From: Glossina fuscipes
Taxonomy: Eukaryota > Arthropoda > Insecta > Diptera > Glossinidae
Reading direction: 5' to 3'
Assembly (NCBI RefSeq): GCF_014805625.2
Contig: NW_023998414.1
Span: 43,861,561-43,925,560 of the forward strand
DNA length: 64,000 nucleotides
This document shows positions 54,950 to 61,824 of this stretch, piece by piece. The position numbers and the translations under genes are program-made. How positions within the stretch are numbered: position 1 is the first letter of the stretch; each line of letters begins with the position of its first letter. The notes under the pieces were generated by a model that saw nothing but the letters and a program-made list of their open reading frames with translations, ran no database searches and was not told where the DNA came from.

Positions 54950-55412
54950 GTGTATACATTCTTGGCCAGTTTCACATTTGGAATGCATCCAAACTTGCCC
55001 GTGTGTTCGTCTCTCCATCTGTCCGTTTACCAAACTATGTAGAAGCTGTGGTCAACATTCTCTCGTCAGCTGAAATGAAGATATCGGCTAGTAATTTGCG
55101 AAAGAGTTGGAAAATGATCCAAAGTGGTCAAAGGACACGCCTATAACACCCACACGTCTATGCAACAAAAACCGAAAACATGGTTGCTTCCCAAGATTTT
55201 TTCATCGTTACTCATAACCTACACCACACAACACAAAAAATAAATTCATACTTTTACTAAAAAAACAGAACAGAAAAAACAGTCGGCCATGCTAATATTA
55301 TAGAGTATGGGAATTGAGTTTTCTAGTTGTTATTTTTAGGGTTTAATAGGATAATGTTGATGAGTATAAATGATTCGGTCTCAACCGAAGCAATATAATT
55401 TTCTTACTCCTT
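54950..55412 (-). repeat. dispersed repeat family 1, inverted diverged copy
   Basis: On the minus strand it starts AGTAAGAAAATTATATTGC, then CTTCGGTTGAGACCGAATC, and carries CTCTATAATATTAGCATGGC and the gacagatgga-type module near 55,010-55,025. Confidence 0.6.
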
Positions 55413-56077
55413 TTGTTGTGTTATGTCGGCCGGAGCAAAATATGAGAAGAACAATTGTAAGGGTGTGGTGACGGTATAAAGTTATTTATAGTTTCCATTT
55501 TATGGAAGATTGTTAAGATAAGTATTATAGATTTGTGCGCCGTAAGTCCAGTTATTTTTTAAACGTGACTTAGCTGTGAAGTGTAGTCTACTCTCTTACT
55601 TTTGTTGATCGTAATCTACAATTTTTTGCAATGTGGACTAATAGATGTGCAAATGGTGGATAGGCAGGTAGACAGGCAGACATGTACTAAACGATTTTGT
55701 AATTTGCTAACGCACATGCAATTTAGGAGTGAAGATATCGTGAAAACTTGAAAAAAGAGGGAAGAATTTAATTTTATTTACACAAAAAGTTAGTTTAGTG
55801 TAATTGCTTTTTTTTCAATTTTTTTTTATTTTGTCCAAATGTCTAGAAAAAGTTTTAACAACTAAAGAAATTTTATACAAAATTGAAGTAAAAGAGTGCA
55901 AAATAATAATTCTAAATAAAAGAGTATTAAACAATTTTCTGCAATGCTTGCATCCTTTCACAAGTCTAGTTTGTACAATCAATATAAATATACAGGGCGG
56001 AAAGGTGAAGAAATGTTATACTTTACTTACTTATAAAATATACTACTTACACTGACATACATATGCACATGCACATG
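55413..56077. other. intergenic DNA with a small repeat-family trace
   Basis: 'gtagacaggcagacatgtac' near 55,668-55,690 is reminiscent of family 1; no gene seen. Confidence 0.4.
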
Positions 56078-56081
56078 CCCC

Positions 56082-56112
<31 letters not shown>

Positions 56113-56120
56113 ACACACAG
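56078..56120 (+). repeat. C run plus (AC)n, 5' flank of the Waldo-like insertion
   Basis: About 21 C followed by about 11 AC units, ending exactly where the retrotransposon fragment starts. The long C run may be an assembly or polymerase-slippage artefact. Confidence 0.9.
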
Positions 56121-56590
56121 ATTCGGGCACGACAGTTCGCCTAACTGCCCGGTATGTGAGGATATGGAGGAGGACGCAGAACACGTAATGCTCTACTGCA
56201 ACAGGTTCGAGAATGGGCGGCCTCAAGTGCCACCTAACGAGATAACAAGCGCAATGGTTGGCAGTCCAGCAGCCTGGAACGCCGTAGACGCATTCGCCAG
56301 CAATACTCTCGTGGAGTTGCGGCGATTGGAGAGGCAACGGGTGGAGAGCAGAGGGAGTGGAAGCCGATAGTGCATTCCACTGAGGTCCCACCATCAGGAG
56401 CGTGCTAGCGACAACCAGCCCCCGCGAAGTAATACCTAACGGTGGTTCCGCGGGGGAGAGTGGTAGAAGGAGTGTGTGTGTGGGGGGGTAGTTTTTAGTA
56501 CGTATGCGCCAGGGATGGCGAATCGTGCATGCTGCTACTAAGACCCAGCAGTATCTTTCGAAGATTTTCTACCTCCAGCTCACAGAGCAA

Positions 56591-56607
<17 letters not shown>
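56121..56607 (+). mobile_element. Waldo-like R1-clade retrotransposon, 5'-truncated copy in a CA repeat
   Basis: The plus strand encodes the ORF2 C terminus in frame: RHDSSPNCPVCEDMEEDA, then EHVMLYCNRF (a Cys/His finger, CxxC-H-C type), WNAVDAF, LVELRRLERQR and a stop at about 56,370. A G+C-rich 3' UTR of about 215 bp follows, ending 'ccagctcacagagc' and a poly-A tail of about 19. (AC)n lies on both sides. The intact C-terminal frame suggests a younger insertion than 29,641-30,048. Confidence 0.85.
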
Positions 56608-56645
<38 letters not shown>

Positions 56646-56670
56646 CAAACACACACAACAATAAACACAC
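56608..56670 (+). repeat. (CA)n microsatellite, 3' flank of the Waldo-like insertion
   Basis: CA repeats with occasional CAAA interruptions, continuing the repeat interrupted by the insertion. Confidence 0.9.
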
Positions 56671-56783
56671 ATATTGACTTTATGTGACATTTAAGTTGGG
56701 AGCTTCGCTATAATCTAAAACGAAAATAATATCAATATTTGCTTCTTTTTGAACTGCACTGTCAATATAGTTTCATCATCATT

Positions 56784-57041
56784 CTACACATTTTCCGGCT
56801 CTGGCAATTTCCGCTCACAACAGTGACATACCAAAGCGCTTAATCTCTGGCCCAGAGCTGACCACACAGTCATCGACATCGAAGAGGAAATATTGCAGCT
56901 AGAAGTCTGTACACCGGCTGACTTAGTCATTGGTTTTGCCATCGGCAGACCTTGCTGATGCTCTTGATGCTTCTGCATCAAGGCGGCCAAGGCGCCATTA
57001 TTCGACAAAGAGTTAGTGGTCGTCTCTGAGCTACCGCGTTG
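56784..57041 (-). CDS. Pde9: Pde9 candidate stop-codon readthrough extension
   Basis: Directly after the TGA at 57,044-57,042 and in the same frame lie 85 sense codons, beginning QRGSSETTTNSLSNNGALAA and ending RKLPEPENV before TAG at 56,786-56,784. The stretch contains AALMQKHQEHQQGLPMAKP and WSALGQRLSALVCHCCERK and is as G+C-rich and non-repetitive as exon D, unlike the non-coding sequence around it. The stop context is TGA-C, known to be leaky in flies. Alternatives: a recent CGA-to-TGA mutation, a sequencing error, or an unrecognised splice. Confidence 0.6.
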   Translation of the reverse strand, partial: QRGSSETTTNSLSNNGALAALMQKHQEHQQGLPMAKPMTKSAGVQTSSCNISSSMSMTVWSALGQRLSALVCHCCERKLPEPENV

Positions 57042-58406
57042 TCAAATTTTTGGTGGTTCAGTCGCTGAAGAGCCCAAATCAATACTAAGACTAGGTTCGG
57101 CGGCGTCGCCTAAATTAGTTGGCGTAAGTACGCTAGAGAGGCCACCAGTAGTAATCAGTATCGTATCACTAGCATCGACACTGCCTATTCGGATAGGCGG
57201 AGGCATGCAAGTAGGCATCTCACTGCCAGTTCCACTGCTGCTGTGTAAAGTGTTATTACTGTTGTTTACGTCGCCCAGACCACCACCATCATGGCGAGAG
57301 CTTTTGCGGCTGCTGTCTCCGCCACCGCCACTACTGCTGCTATAACGAGGATTACTGCGATTACAGGGTACATCTAAACTGTAGGCACGATGACGTCCTG
57401 CGGCCGCCGCTGCAATTAAGTCCTGTTGATGTTGAACAAGTTGCGTTTGCCTTAAACTGGGCGACTGCAGGTTATTTGAGATAGTACAACAAATGCCAGT
57501 AGGTTTACCCGTAAGTGGATCTACATACGTTCCACTACGTGGGCCAGTTATGGTGGCAGCATGAGCTGTATTATTGTTACGCATCGAGCAAGGGCTACTG
57601 CGTGTGCTACCGAAACGTTTGGAACTCTTGTCAAAGGAAAAACTAAAATATTCGGAGAACTGTTTAAGGCGTGCTTTCCACGACGATTTCGGTGGTGCGG
57701 TTATTTCAGTGCTGTGTGGACCCGTAACACCGTTCAATGTGTTATTGGCAGCGACAGACGTTGCCGTTGTACAAATATGCTGTCTGGGCTGTAATATTTG
57801 CGTAGGCGACATATTACCATTGGAGGACATTGTAGACATATTAATAATATTGTGCTGATTGGCTGTGGCAGTGATTGTAGTCTGTAGTGTCAACGATGCA
57901 GGCTGAGCCACGTTATTGACAGCGGTGGTGACATTACTTCCGGTGGTACTATCGCTAATAGAACCTTCCAAATTTGGCACTAGCTGAGATGTATCACTCA
58001 ATGTGTGATTAGTGTTACCATTTGCGGTACTTATTTGCTGATTCATGTTCATATCTTCGGCCAAGCGACAAATGACCGTTGAAGCTTCCAAGCTGCTGCG
58101 ATTGTGACGATTATAAAAGACATTACTATCAGATATGACCTGCTGCAAGCCATCCGATGAACGACGATTATTTGTGCTATACTGATCCAAGCTGACCGCA
58201 CGATTTGAACTGAAATGCCCTCGATTTGCATGGTAGCCATGAATATTACCATAAGAATTGCGTATGCGTTGACCACTGCTGCACATTTCCCCAATCATAG
58301 ATGGACGCTTCTCACGTGATGATTTGCGTGACGTGGAATGCGACGACTTTGAACGATTACTACTGCCTTCGGTGTCGACTTTAAATTTTGAAGTCTTTTC
58401 GGCAAC
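57042..58406 (-). CDS. Pde9: Pde9 exon D (long disordered tail) to first stop
   Basis: Acceptor TTTTCAAG at 58,407, then VAEKTSKFKVDTEGSSNRSK in phase 0. It holds 454 open codons, with G+C content well above the surroundings and no recognisable domain; Ser, Asn, Thr and Arg dominate. It ends ATEPPKI-TGA. Confidence 0.82.
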   Translation of the reverse strand, partial: VAEKTSKFKVDTEGSSNRSKSSHSTSRKSSREKRPSMIGEMCSSGQRIRNSYGNIHGYHANRGHFSSNRAVSLDQYSTNNRRSSDGLQQVISDSNVFYNRHNRSSLEASTVICRLAEDMNMNQQISTANGNTNHTLSDTSQLVPNLEGSISDSTTGSNVTTAVNNVAQPASLTLQTTITATANQHNIINMSTMSSNGNMSPTQILQPRQHICTTATSVAANNTLNGVTGPHSTEITAPPKSSWKARLKQFSEYFSFSFDKSSKRFGSTRSSPCSMRNNNTAHAATITGPRSGTYVDPLTGKPTGICCTISNNLQSPSLRQTQLVQHQQDLIAAAAAGRHRAYSLDVPCNRSNPRYSSSSGGGGDSSRKSSRHDGGGLGDVNNSNNTLHSSSGTGSEMPTCMPPPIRIGSVDASDTILITTGGLSSVLTPTNLGDAAEPSLSIDLGSSATEPPKI

Positions 58407-60179
58407 CTTGAAAATATAGAAACGCAAAGCAAAAGAAAAGTCAATATGTCCTCTCGTTTATTTCAAAAGGCTATTGGATTAAATATAATACAAAATCGCA
58501 GAGGGAACGCATTAATCTAGTTGCAATGATCGACTCATCTAAGCAAAACAGCCTTAACGGCTGCATTTGCATTTAAAGTTTTTAAAATACTAGCCTCTAT
58601 CACGAATTGCCCTTTGCGCTTAGTTGAACGTACGAATCGACTAAAAAAAACCTTTTTTTTCAGCCAAGAATTGATAAACAAATCACTTTCTCTACATGTG
58701 TAAGAACAATGTGCTCGAAAATGTACGACTGTTGCATACTTGTCATTAAACATAAATAAGATAATCTTAAAATTGGTGGCTGAGCAGTAGGTTTGTCAAC
58801 AATCGGAGCGGAACAACTTTGATATTATGTTTTGTTATAGATTCGTTCACAGTTTTAGATCGACATATGCTACAGCTACAAAGTTATTGAAAACGTGTTC
58901 GATATTTCCAAGATTATTTCGGTTCGGTTTTTCGATTATTATGGGTGTCTGAAAATGGAAAAGAGCGTAATGAGAAACGAAAATGAATTACATGCTGTTT
59001 TGTTTTTCTTTTAAAGTAGCAAAGTAGTAGTACTTGATCTTCTACAGAGGACGCCATACTTTTAAAACTTGCATTTGCATTATTTACCGGTGACTATATA
59101 GCATATTTTATCTTTGACAAGCATACACAAGAAAATAAGGCCTGATAAAAAGTCAAGTTTAAGGGAGGAGAAGCAAGAAAGGGAAAAGGATCGATCTATT
59201 CAAGTAAAAACACAACTACAAGGCGGGAGCAAAAAATAATTTGACCATCAAAATCAATATTTACATCGACTTCGGTTGCAGTTTCCGAATCACCACTTTC
59301 ACTGCCTTCGGGCAAATCATGTAATTCGGCGGGAATGCCACCAGGCTCATCAACTGAAGTACGTGATGCTGACTTTTGTGATGGTATACTCCGGCGGGAC
59401 TTCACACTAATGCCTGACTGTGAGCGTGGCATTTGGGGTGAAATACTGCCGCCAGAGTTGCCAACACTCGGTGCGGACGCAGTCGTGTCAGCACCATTAG
59501 CCATGCCACCACCTACTGTGGCAGAACTGTTAGAGTTGTCTTTGTTATCCGAAGCACCGCTGTTATCACCCGAAGGACCTGCCGAACTTGTATCAGCCAT
59601 AGATTTGCGGGATTTTGTTTGAGCATCATTTAAACGTCTGAAAGAAAATAATAAATTTCTAATATAATGAATACTTATTATTGACATACTTGTAATAATC
59701 GAAAGCTATTCGTACTGGTATTATAATAAGTTCCGTAACTTCGGGCACCAGATCGCCTAAAGCTTCAAATAGAGGCAACAGCACCAAGCCAATGAAGCGA
59801 ACTTGCGAACCGGGCTTACTAATCTTGTCGGGATCCATGAACGGTGTAACCGGTAAGCCCTCTGATTTTTCTGCTGCACTTTGAGCAAAAAATTCTTGCA
59901 GTAAACGATCAAGCCAAGGCTCAGCTACATCCATGGGACGTGCTTCATTTGAGATATCTGCGACTTTAATTAAAATCATGCAAAGCTATGTAAGAAAATT
60001 AATAATGAATAAGATCTTCACAATCGAGTACGAAAAGAGATTAACAACTTGCCAAATTTATATGCGCTCGATTGGTGTAATCGAATGTTGATGTGATATC
60101 TTTGAACTGAGTTAAAATTTCATTGTGTCTGGCCATGTCTGTGGCTAAAATGCAACGTATAATGCCTTCGCGTATTTGG
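57042..60179 (-). CDS. Pde9: phosphodiesterase 9 (cGMP-specific), 3' half of gene
   Basis: PDE9 hydrolyses cGMP to GMP. Visible exons are 60,179-60,053, 59,985-59,690, 59,637-59,265 and 58,406-57,042; the 5' exons, including the metal-binding HD motifs, lie beyond the right edge. The catalytic part reads QIREGIIRCILATDMARHNE, then MILIKVADISNEARPMDVAEPW (the metal-binding Asp of ADISNE) and EKSEGLPVTPFMDPDK, followed by the invariant purine-binding Gln in GSQVRFIG, all as in PDE9A. A tail of about 575 residues follows (Ser/Asn/Gly-rich, with SRKSSREKR-type basic patches), predicted disordered. Phases are consistent: 0, 2, 0. The main stop TGA is at 57,044-57,042. Homology of the catalytic exons is clear; attachment of the last exon rests on phase and splice sites. 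Confidence 0.9.
58407..59264 (-). other. Pde9 intron between exons C and D
   Basis: 858 nt with GT-AG ends (GTAAAT...TTTTCAAG). No other feature seen. Confidence 0.75.
59265..59637 (-). CDS. Pde9: Pde9 exon C (post-catalytic, Ser/Gly-rich)
   Basis: Acceptor TTTCTTTCAG at 59,638. It begins KRLNDAQTKSRKSM, continuing the final PDE9 helix, then becomes Ser/Gly/Asn-rich and ends in an acidic stretch (EGSESGDSETATEVD) at donor GAT|GTAAAT, phase 0. Reading through the donor would end the protein after about 20 more residues. Confidence 0.85.
59690..59985 (-). CDS. Pde9: Pde9 exon B (catalytic domain end)
   Basis: Acceptor TTACATAG at 59,986, then LCMILIKVADISNEARP. It contains the catalytic Asp and the conserved Gln and ends DYYK at donor AA|GTATGT in phase 2. 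Length and order match PDE9A over nearly 100 residues. Confidence 0.92.
60053..60179 (-). CDS. Pde9: Pde9 exon A (catalytic domain)
   Basis: Acceptor TTCATTTTTAG precedes 60,179; the first base completes a codon from the missing upstream exon. It encodes QIREGIIRCILATDMARHNE and then a stretch ending NRAHINL. The donor is TTG|GCAAGT, a GC donor; using a GT site instead breaks the frame with the next exon. Confidence 0.85.
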
Positions 60180-61824
60180 CTAAAAATGAAGAATGAGAAA
60201 CGTGAAGTTGAAGTCAAAGGCATTGAAAGCGTTTTTAATCAAAAACGAAGTACATTTCTCAAATTTTATTCATTTAATAATTTCCAAGCAGATTATGGTT
60301 TTTGATTATTACTAAAATTTTCTATAGATGAAAAATTCGAAGGGGTAGATATTTTGATGCCCTCTTCTCTCTTCTCTTAATACCACAAAAGTATTATTGT
60401 TAGCATTTATTAACGTTTCTTTCTAAATTTTTAATTTAACAATTTTTCTTTTTAGCACAAGTCTCTTGTGTGTAAGGAAGGTTCCTACAGTAACAAGAGC
60501 TCGTCTCCCTCAAGGAATGTCTAATAATAGGTAATACGTATGCTATTTAAACGCGCACATACAGACAAGAATGTGAAATGAACTTCACAGTTTGTGTAAA
60601 TGCGTTTAAATGCATTTATATGTATATTTATAGTCATTTTACGGTTGAACTGGTGAAATACGATAAGAAGGGAAAGAATAACTAAAGCTTGCATTTAATT
60701 TATCAACTTCCAAAGACAGAAGGGTGAGATTATTATTGTTTGACGGCAAGCAATAAGTCACGATTGTCTTAAGTGTCATTTGCACAAATATAAATCAGAG
60801 ATCAGTTATTTCTTAGTAATCTTTAAGATACCGTCTCTGTGTCGCTTTGTATTCTTATTAAAATTTTCGAATTCTTTTTTTTTTTTTGCTTTTCGATATG
60901 TGGATACTTATCATCTACAATTGAAGCGTTTTATTACCTTTCTTCTTCTTCTTTTTTTTTTTAATAATTAAAACAGTCACCCAGGGCTCAATTCACAATT
61001 ATTTGAAGTTCATCTGCTGGCTGTCTGTCTCCTCGGCTGCTGCCTGGGACATGAAATTAAGTGTCTTGGCAGGTTTTCGCCCACGGACAATGGCTTACAT
61101 TGAACCATTTGACTGGCGATAGAATGTTGGATTTAGAAATATCGATGCAAAATGGTATTTTAATTTATGAATTTGGGAAATTGAGTTGCGATTGGTAACC
61201 CCTCGTCTTTTCGTTAGAAAGTAAGTATCTATACGGCAACATCGTCTAGTTTTTATTATCTTTTTTTCGTATCTAAATTTATTGCATTAAGTTTAAACCG
61301 TACAGATATGTATTTTGGATCCCTCCCACATATAAAGACTCTTATGAGAAATAAGCACTTACACGGCAGCTATGTATAACTATTCATATTTTATGAATAA
61401 AAACGAATGAGAAAGTTATACTCGGCGGCTGGCGGACCTACCCACCACTATGCTTTTCGCATTCTACTCGCCAAGTTCTTTTAGTTGATACGCATGTCGA
61501 TGGTATTATTAAGAAAAAATTAATTTATCAGGCAACGGTGTCTATTAATCATATTCATTTTAGAATTAACCCATTTTTAGGCAGATAATACATGATTGTT
61601 TGAGGAATGTACAAAATAATTTTTAACATCCTTCGTTGTTTGCATTATAATAAATACGTATAAAACTTCGAAAACGTGAAAAAAATAAATTTTAATCACT
61701 TGTAACATTGTGTGTGGGCATGGCCGATGAAGAATTGAGTTTTTCGTAAAGTAAATATGACAATATTTCAGCCTTTTAAATTTTATAAATTCTGAGTAAC
61801 CAACATTATTTTTGTTAAGAAAAA
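60180..61824. other. Pde9 intron, partial
   Basis: No PDE9 core exon (no CHDLDHPG-type sequence) was found on the minus strand. A short G+C-richer island lies at about 61,010-61,100. Confidence 0.5.

Follow-up and report, generated by a model that had tools for sequence, protein, structure and literature searches.

Pde9 exons and the open frame past the stop codon

The window, the whole 64,000-nucleotide stretch of Glossina fuscipes DNA that was analyzed, carries exons of a Pde9 gene on its minus strand. The exons were placed by tblastn of the Drosophila sechellia protein P0026 on the window, which matched at 60199-60053, about 59985-59690, 59637-59265 and from 58406 on. These exons and the features past the stop codon are as follows.

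60053..60199, minus strand: Pde9 exon within the catalytic domain, with an approximate 5' edge at 60199 taken from tblastn
59690..59985, minus strand: Pde9 exon in which the PDEase_I catalytic domain ends (Pfam PF00233); splice edges set by eye
59265..59637, minus strand: Pde9 exon, Ser/Gly-rich linker (tblastn)
57042..58406, minus strand: last exon of Pde9, with 454 main-frame codons and the TGA stop
57042..57044, minus strand: candidate leaky stop TGA, in the context AAA ATT TGA CAA CGC
56787..57041, minus strand: putative 85-codon readthrough extension, from the open frame and the tails of relatives
57018..57041, minus strand: first 8 codons past the stop, QRGSSETT, matching QQGSSDTT of D. 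hydei
56787..56903, minus strand: conserved tail, extension residues 47-85, with all 24 columns that are invariant among the 8 sequences aligned here
56817..56885, minus strand: predicted amphipathic helix, residues 53-75, ending in CHCC (AlphaFold2; hydrophobic moment)
56784..56786, minus strand: second in-frame stop TAG

The upstream exons encode the last part of a class I phosphodiesterase catalytic domain (PF00233, E 2.7e-25). Over this part the domain is closest to PDE9, and its best PDB matches are PDE9A. Residues 1-202 of P0026 gave no tblastn match across the window, so the 5' exons of Pde9 probably lie outside it. The intron after the exon ending in RAHINL has, by eye, an apparent GC donor at 60052-60051 on the minus strand (TTG/GCAAGT), which would make it a GC-AG intron. 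The main C-terminus has clearly diverged: where the last exon matches that of D. sechellia, the agreement is 48%.

The main frame ends in the TGA at 57044-57042, and the same frame then stays open for 85 codons (57041-56787) before the TAG, as the earlier note had claimed. Its statement that a C follows the TGA holds for the window sequence, in which the next codon is CAA, and the CHCC cluster that it pointed out is real, lying at extension residues 72-75 (56828-56817, minus strand). The other two minus-strand frames contain 4 and 6 stops across the same stretch. An open run of 85 codons would arise by chance with P of about 0.015 given the base composition of the extension and about 0.002 given that of the window, so the openness is suggestive only. 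The extension has a G+C content of 50.6%. This compares with 46.3% for the last main exon, 34.2% for the window and 42.8% for the 1001 bases that follow the TAG, a stretch that includes part of a retrotransposon.

RNA structure past the stop was also considered and is unconvincing. The RNA that directly follows the stop has an unremarkable folding energy (-31.5 kcal/mol, z -1.42), with 23 of 200 shuffles equally good. The stretch 60-79 bases past the stop (56982-56963, minus strand) forms a perfect 8-bp hairpin, CTTGATGC-AGAA-GCATCAAG. Farther downstream, the 3' region of Pde9 holds a 5'-truncated non-LTR retrotransposon fragment on the opposite strand (56120-56607, plus strand) with CA repeats on its flanks. 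The fragment includes a poly-A tract and, over 56383-56583, a match to the R2_retro_el RNA (RF00524, 63.5 bits). It also has a zf-RVT-like zinc finger (PF13966, E 1.7e-4), whose 22.6 bits are below the cut-off of 27.5.

Conservation of the extension in other flies

With the 85 residues as a query, 7 of 12 candidates matched at E 3.6e-14 to 1.7e-10 (database of 5.77 billion). All seven are separate predicted proteins, found by a search that admits short proteins only; one is labelled D. hydei and six are unlabelled. Their tails end in LVCHCCERKLP[ED]PENV. When the window sequence was aligned with the seven, the 24 invariant columns all fell within the last 39 residues, with a common final Val. 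A second search, in which proteins of about 420-1335 residues were scored with the extension alone, found the tail in 2 of 290 candidates, D. sechellia GM11531 (968 residues) and D. busckii Pde9 (777 residues). The CHCC cluster is invariant among the eight aligned sequences and reads CNCC in D. busckii (P0027).

Across ten sequences (the window and P0019-P0027), the last 31 residues include 19 that never vary, and the final residue is identical in every one; the window shares 23 to 29 of these 31 residues with each of the other nine. Changes among the drosophilid tails are mostly conservative (I/L, S/N), with P0025 diverging more. Between the stop and the tail lies a linker with little conservation beyond its first residues, which were compared between the window and D. 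hydei only, and its length changes preserve the frame of the tail. Of the seven relatives, five have 39-53% Asp/Glu in the linker, P0023 has 22% and P0025 has 5%; the window has 4%. P0023 alone appears to extend back to the stop, and the other six start at a predicted internal start. The earlier note had proposed that orthologues lacking the open frame would speak against readthrough; at the protein level, the relatives instead retain the tail with the same end. This conservation in other flies, confirmed by protein comparison, is the decisive support for a coding extension. When viral_contigs and genome_contigs were scanned with the extension alignment, 12 and 51 pattern matches were obtained, none of them a confirmed relative.

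The main-frame terminus was inspected in the same way. With the 268 C-terminal residues of the main frame as a query, 18 of 829 candidates matched; judged from protein ends only, every one of the 18 finishes with the Lys-Ile that precedes the TGA in the window. The terminus is thus kept in relatives. The residue at position -3 is P in 12 of them, S in four and A in two. Lys-Ile (57050-57045, minus strand) is invariant at the protein level while the preceding residues vary, which may reflect a nucleotide context that aids readthrough. An ungapped comparison of the last 31 main-frame residues gave only 4 to 8 shared residues, a figure that understates the conservation since insertions were left uncorrected. 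A sense codon replacing the TGA, which the earlier note had named as another possible refutation, was seen in none of the relatives from three length-limited protein searches, in which the length limits and a shared-word requirement could cause some relatives to be missed. For both P0018, a main-frame protein, and P0022, an extension protein, the longest contig given is one of 6795 bases from jgi, and the two probably come from one contig.

Probable readthrough and its alternatives

We consider it highly likely, from the sequence comparisons, that the UGA of fly PDE9 undergoes conserved translational readthrough. Some of the ribosomes that reach this UGA at the main-frame end would insert an amino acid there and translate on to the next in-frame stop, so that a minor form of PDE9 would carry 85 extra residues at its C-terminus. 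At the protein level, the comparisons show the frame, the kept terminus and an extension that other flies conserve; from these we infer that the joining occurs by ribosomal readthrough, helped by the C after the UGA. The readthrough interpretation of the earlier note is accordingly supported, and the tests by which it could have failed came out mostly in its favor.

The main rival is alternative splicing, in which a short intron would excise the TGA and join the main frame to the tail. The D. sechellia and D. busckii entries look spliced in this manner, as both lack the main-frame end, and the variable linker would also be compatible with an alternative exon for the tail. However, the two entries leave the main frame at different points, by eye after GLE in D. 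sechellia (28 residues before the end, compared with P0017) and near SSSEA in D. busckii. Because the exits differ between the species, we read the entries as gene-model introns drawn around a stop, and the introns in both models are probably spurious. We scanned the window for donors at 57400-57045 and acceptors at 57040-56830, using approximate matrices. None of the eight highest-scoring in-frame GT/AG pairs would leave a stop, and their best donor, at 4.0, is near the weaker of the two GT donors of Pde9 itself (6.7 and 4.6). The best in-frame pair nevertheless combines this donor with an acceptor of only 2.5, and no scanned acceptor exceeds 4.0, whereas the acceptors of the gene itself score 6.1, 10.9 and 7.6. 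The resemblance of the first residues past the stop to those of D. hydei also argues against an intron at this place. We regard splicing as unlikely.

The same D. hydei protein bears on the idea that the tail is encoded by a separate downstream cistron or a misannotated neighbor gene. NCBI lists the stretch as a partial protein of its own (LOC115482974), and all seven extension matches are separate predicted proteins, though the search that returned them was confined to short ones. Yet the similarity of the D. hydei protein to the window starts at the codon directly past the stop, and among its 120 residues Met occurs only at 90 and 92, which lie in the conserved block, so that a start codon is not conserved. 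In this one species, the alignment from the stop together with the lack of an earlier Met favors coding that continues from the stop over a separate gene with its own AUG. If the protein starts directly past the stop, its first residue, Gln, also implies a C after the stop. A separate gene is therefore very improbable. We give slightly less weight still to a recoded UGA, whether read as selenocysteine or changed to UGG by A-to-I editing. The stop is indeed UGA, which both routes need, but an Rfam scan for SECIS elements over 55000-57200 on either strand (E up to 10) gave five matches, none of them SECIS, and a selenoprotein was rejected on this basis. ADAR disfavors an A preceded by G, as in UGA, which argues against editing. 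Least probable of all, and close to negligible, is that the downstream conservation reflects an RNA element or a chance open frame, given the same end residue in all ten sequences, the mostly conservative drosophilid changes and the frame-preserving length changes of the linker.

Possible function of the tail

In the readthrough isoform, the extension would act through its last 31 or so residues, a predicted amphipathic helix that ends in CHCC; this part of the proposal is more speculative. The AlphaFold2 model of the extension is poor (mean pLDDT 55.1), with helix blocks at pLDDT 56, 69 and 62. The hydrophobic moment of the segment TVWSALGQRLSALVCHCC, which was chosen by eye, was reached by 234 of 10,000 shuffles. 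The amphipathic helix with a Cys-His-Cys-Cys end suggests membrane contact with S-acylation, and zinc or partner binding by the CHCC tail is possible. The change of His to Asn in D. busckii keeps the cysteines and so slightly favors lipidation over metal binding. The tail may thus be membrane-contacting, possibly S-acylated, or partner-binding, and could place part of the cGMP-hydrolyzing PDE9 at the membrane; a lipid-linked membrane anchor is our guess at its function. A further proposal, which we hold to be rather doubtful, is that leakage at the stop determines how much of the PDE9 carries a probably S-acylated CHCC amphipathic anchor, that the efficiency of termination thereby splits cGMP breakdown between cytosol and membrane, and that this arrangement has been selected since before the split between the fly of the window and Drosophila.

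A known domain in the extension was considered and rejected. Pfam returned one match for the window extension, at 13.4 bits against a cut-off of 23.4, and a PDB profile search with the extension returned a single match at E 2.3. TrAA12 (1.1e-5, in one of the eight aligned extension sequences) and Secretin_N_2 (in two of the eight, best 0.0063) are scattered matches that are probably low-complexity noise.

Comparison with known readthrough genes

Readthrough in flies is itself a known phenomenon, and Pde9 is at most an added case. Jungreis et al. in 2011 reportedly described conserved stop-codon readthrough genes of Drosophila, and in yeast, readthrough of the PDE2 stop codon is said, after Namy et al. 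in 2002, to modulate cAMP levels. Yeast PDE2 and Pde9 are alike in being cyclic-nucleotide phosphodiesterases with readthrough, which for Pde9 is a probable one, and differ in enzyme and organism. A well-conserved readthrough extension on a signaling enzyme is of interest as its tail is short and its function directly testable. The probable PDE9 readthrough also suggests how such genes go wrong in gene models: the D. hydei stretch stands as a partial protein of its own, and the introns drawn for D. sechellia and D. busckii are probably spurious.

By 2015, 328 readthrough genes were annotated in FlyBase according to PMC4528330, and Jungreis and colleagues used 333 D. melanogaster candidates in 2016 (PMC5100048). 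The function of most of the fly extensions is stated there to be unknown (PMC5100048). The main text of PMC4528330 does not name Pde9, and those of PMC3840789 and PMC5100048 name neither Pde9 nor CG42276; the gene lists of all three papers sit in their supplements. Because the extension is so well conserved, our guess is that D. melanogaster Pde9 probably stands on the published lists already.

The Pde9 case resembles these genes in several respects. Readthrough stops of flies and mosquitoes are described as tending to TGA followed by C (PMC5100048), and many longer extensions as mixing variable low-complexity stretches with conserved ones (PMC4528330). Pde9 shares with the Drosophila and Anopheles genes, as described in PMC5100048, the TGA-C, a kept terminus, a conserved extension, and a variable linker with a conserved patch; it differs in that its conservation is known from protein comparison. 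Among ribosome-profiled fly genes, extensions with localization signals have been described (Dunn et al. 2013, PMC3840789), and the proposed Pde9 tail would be like them.
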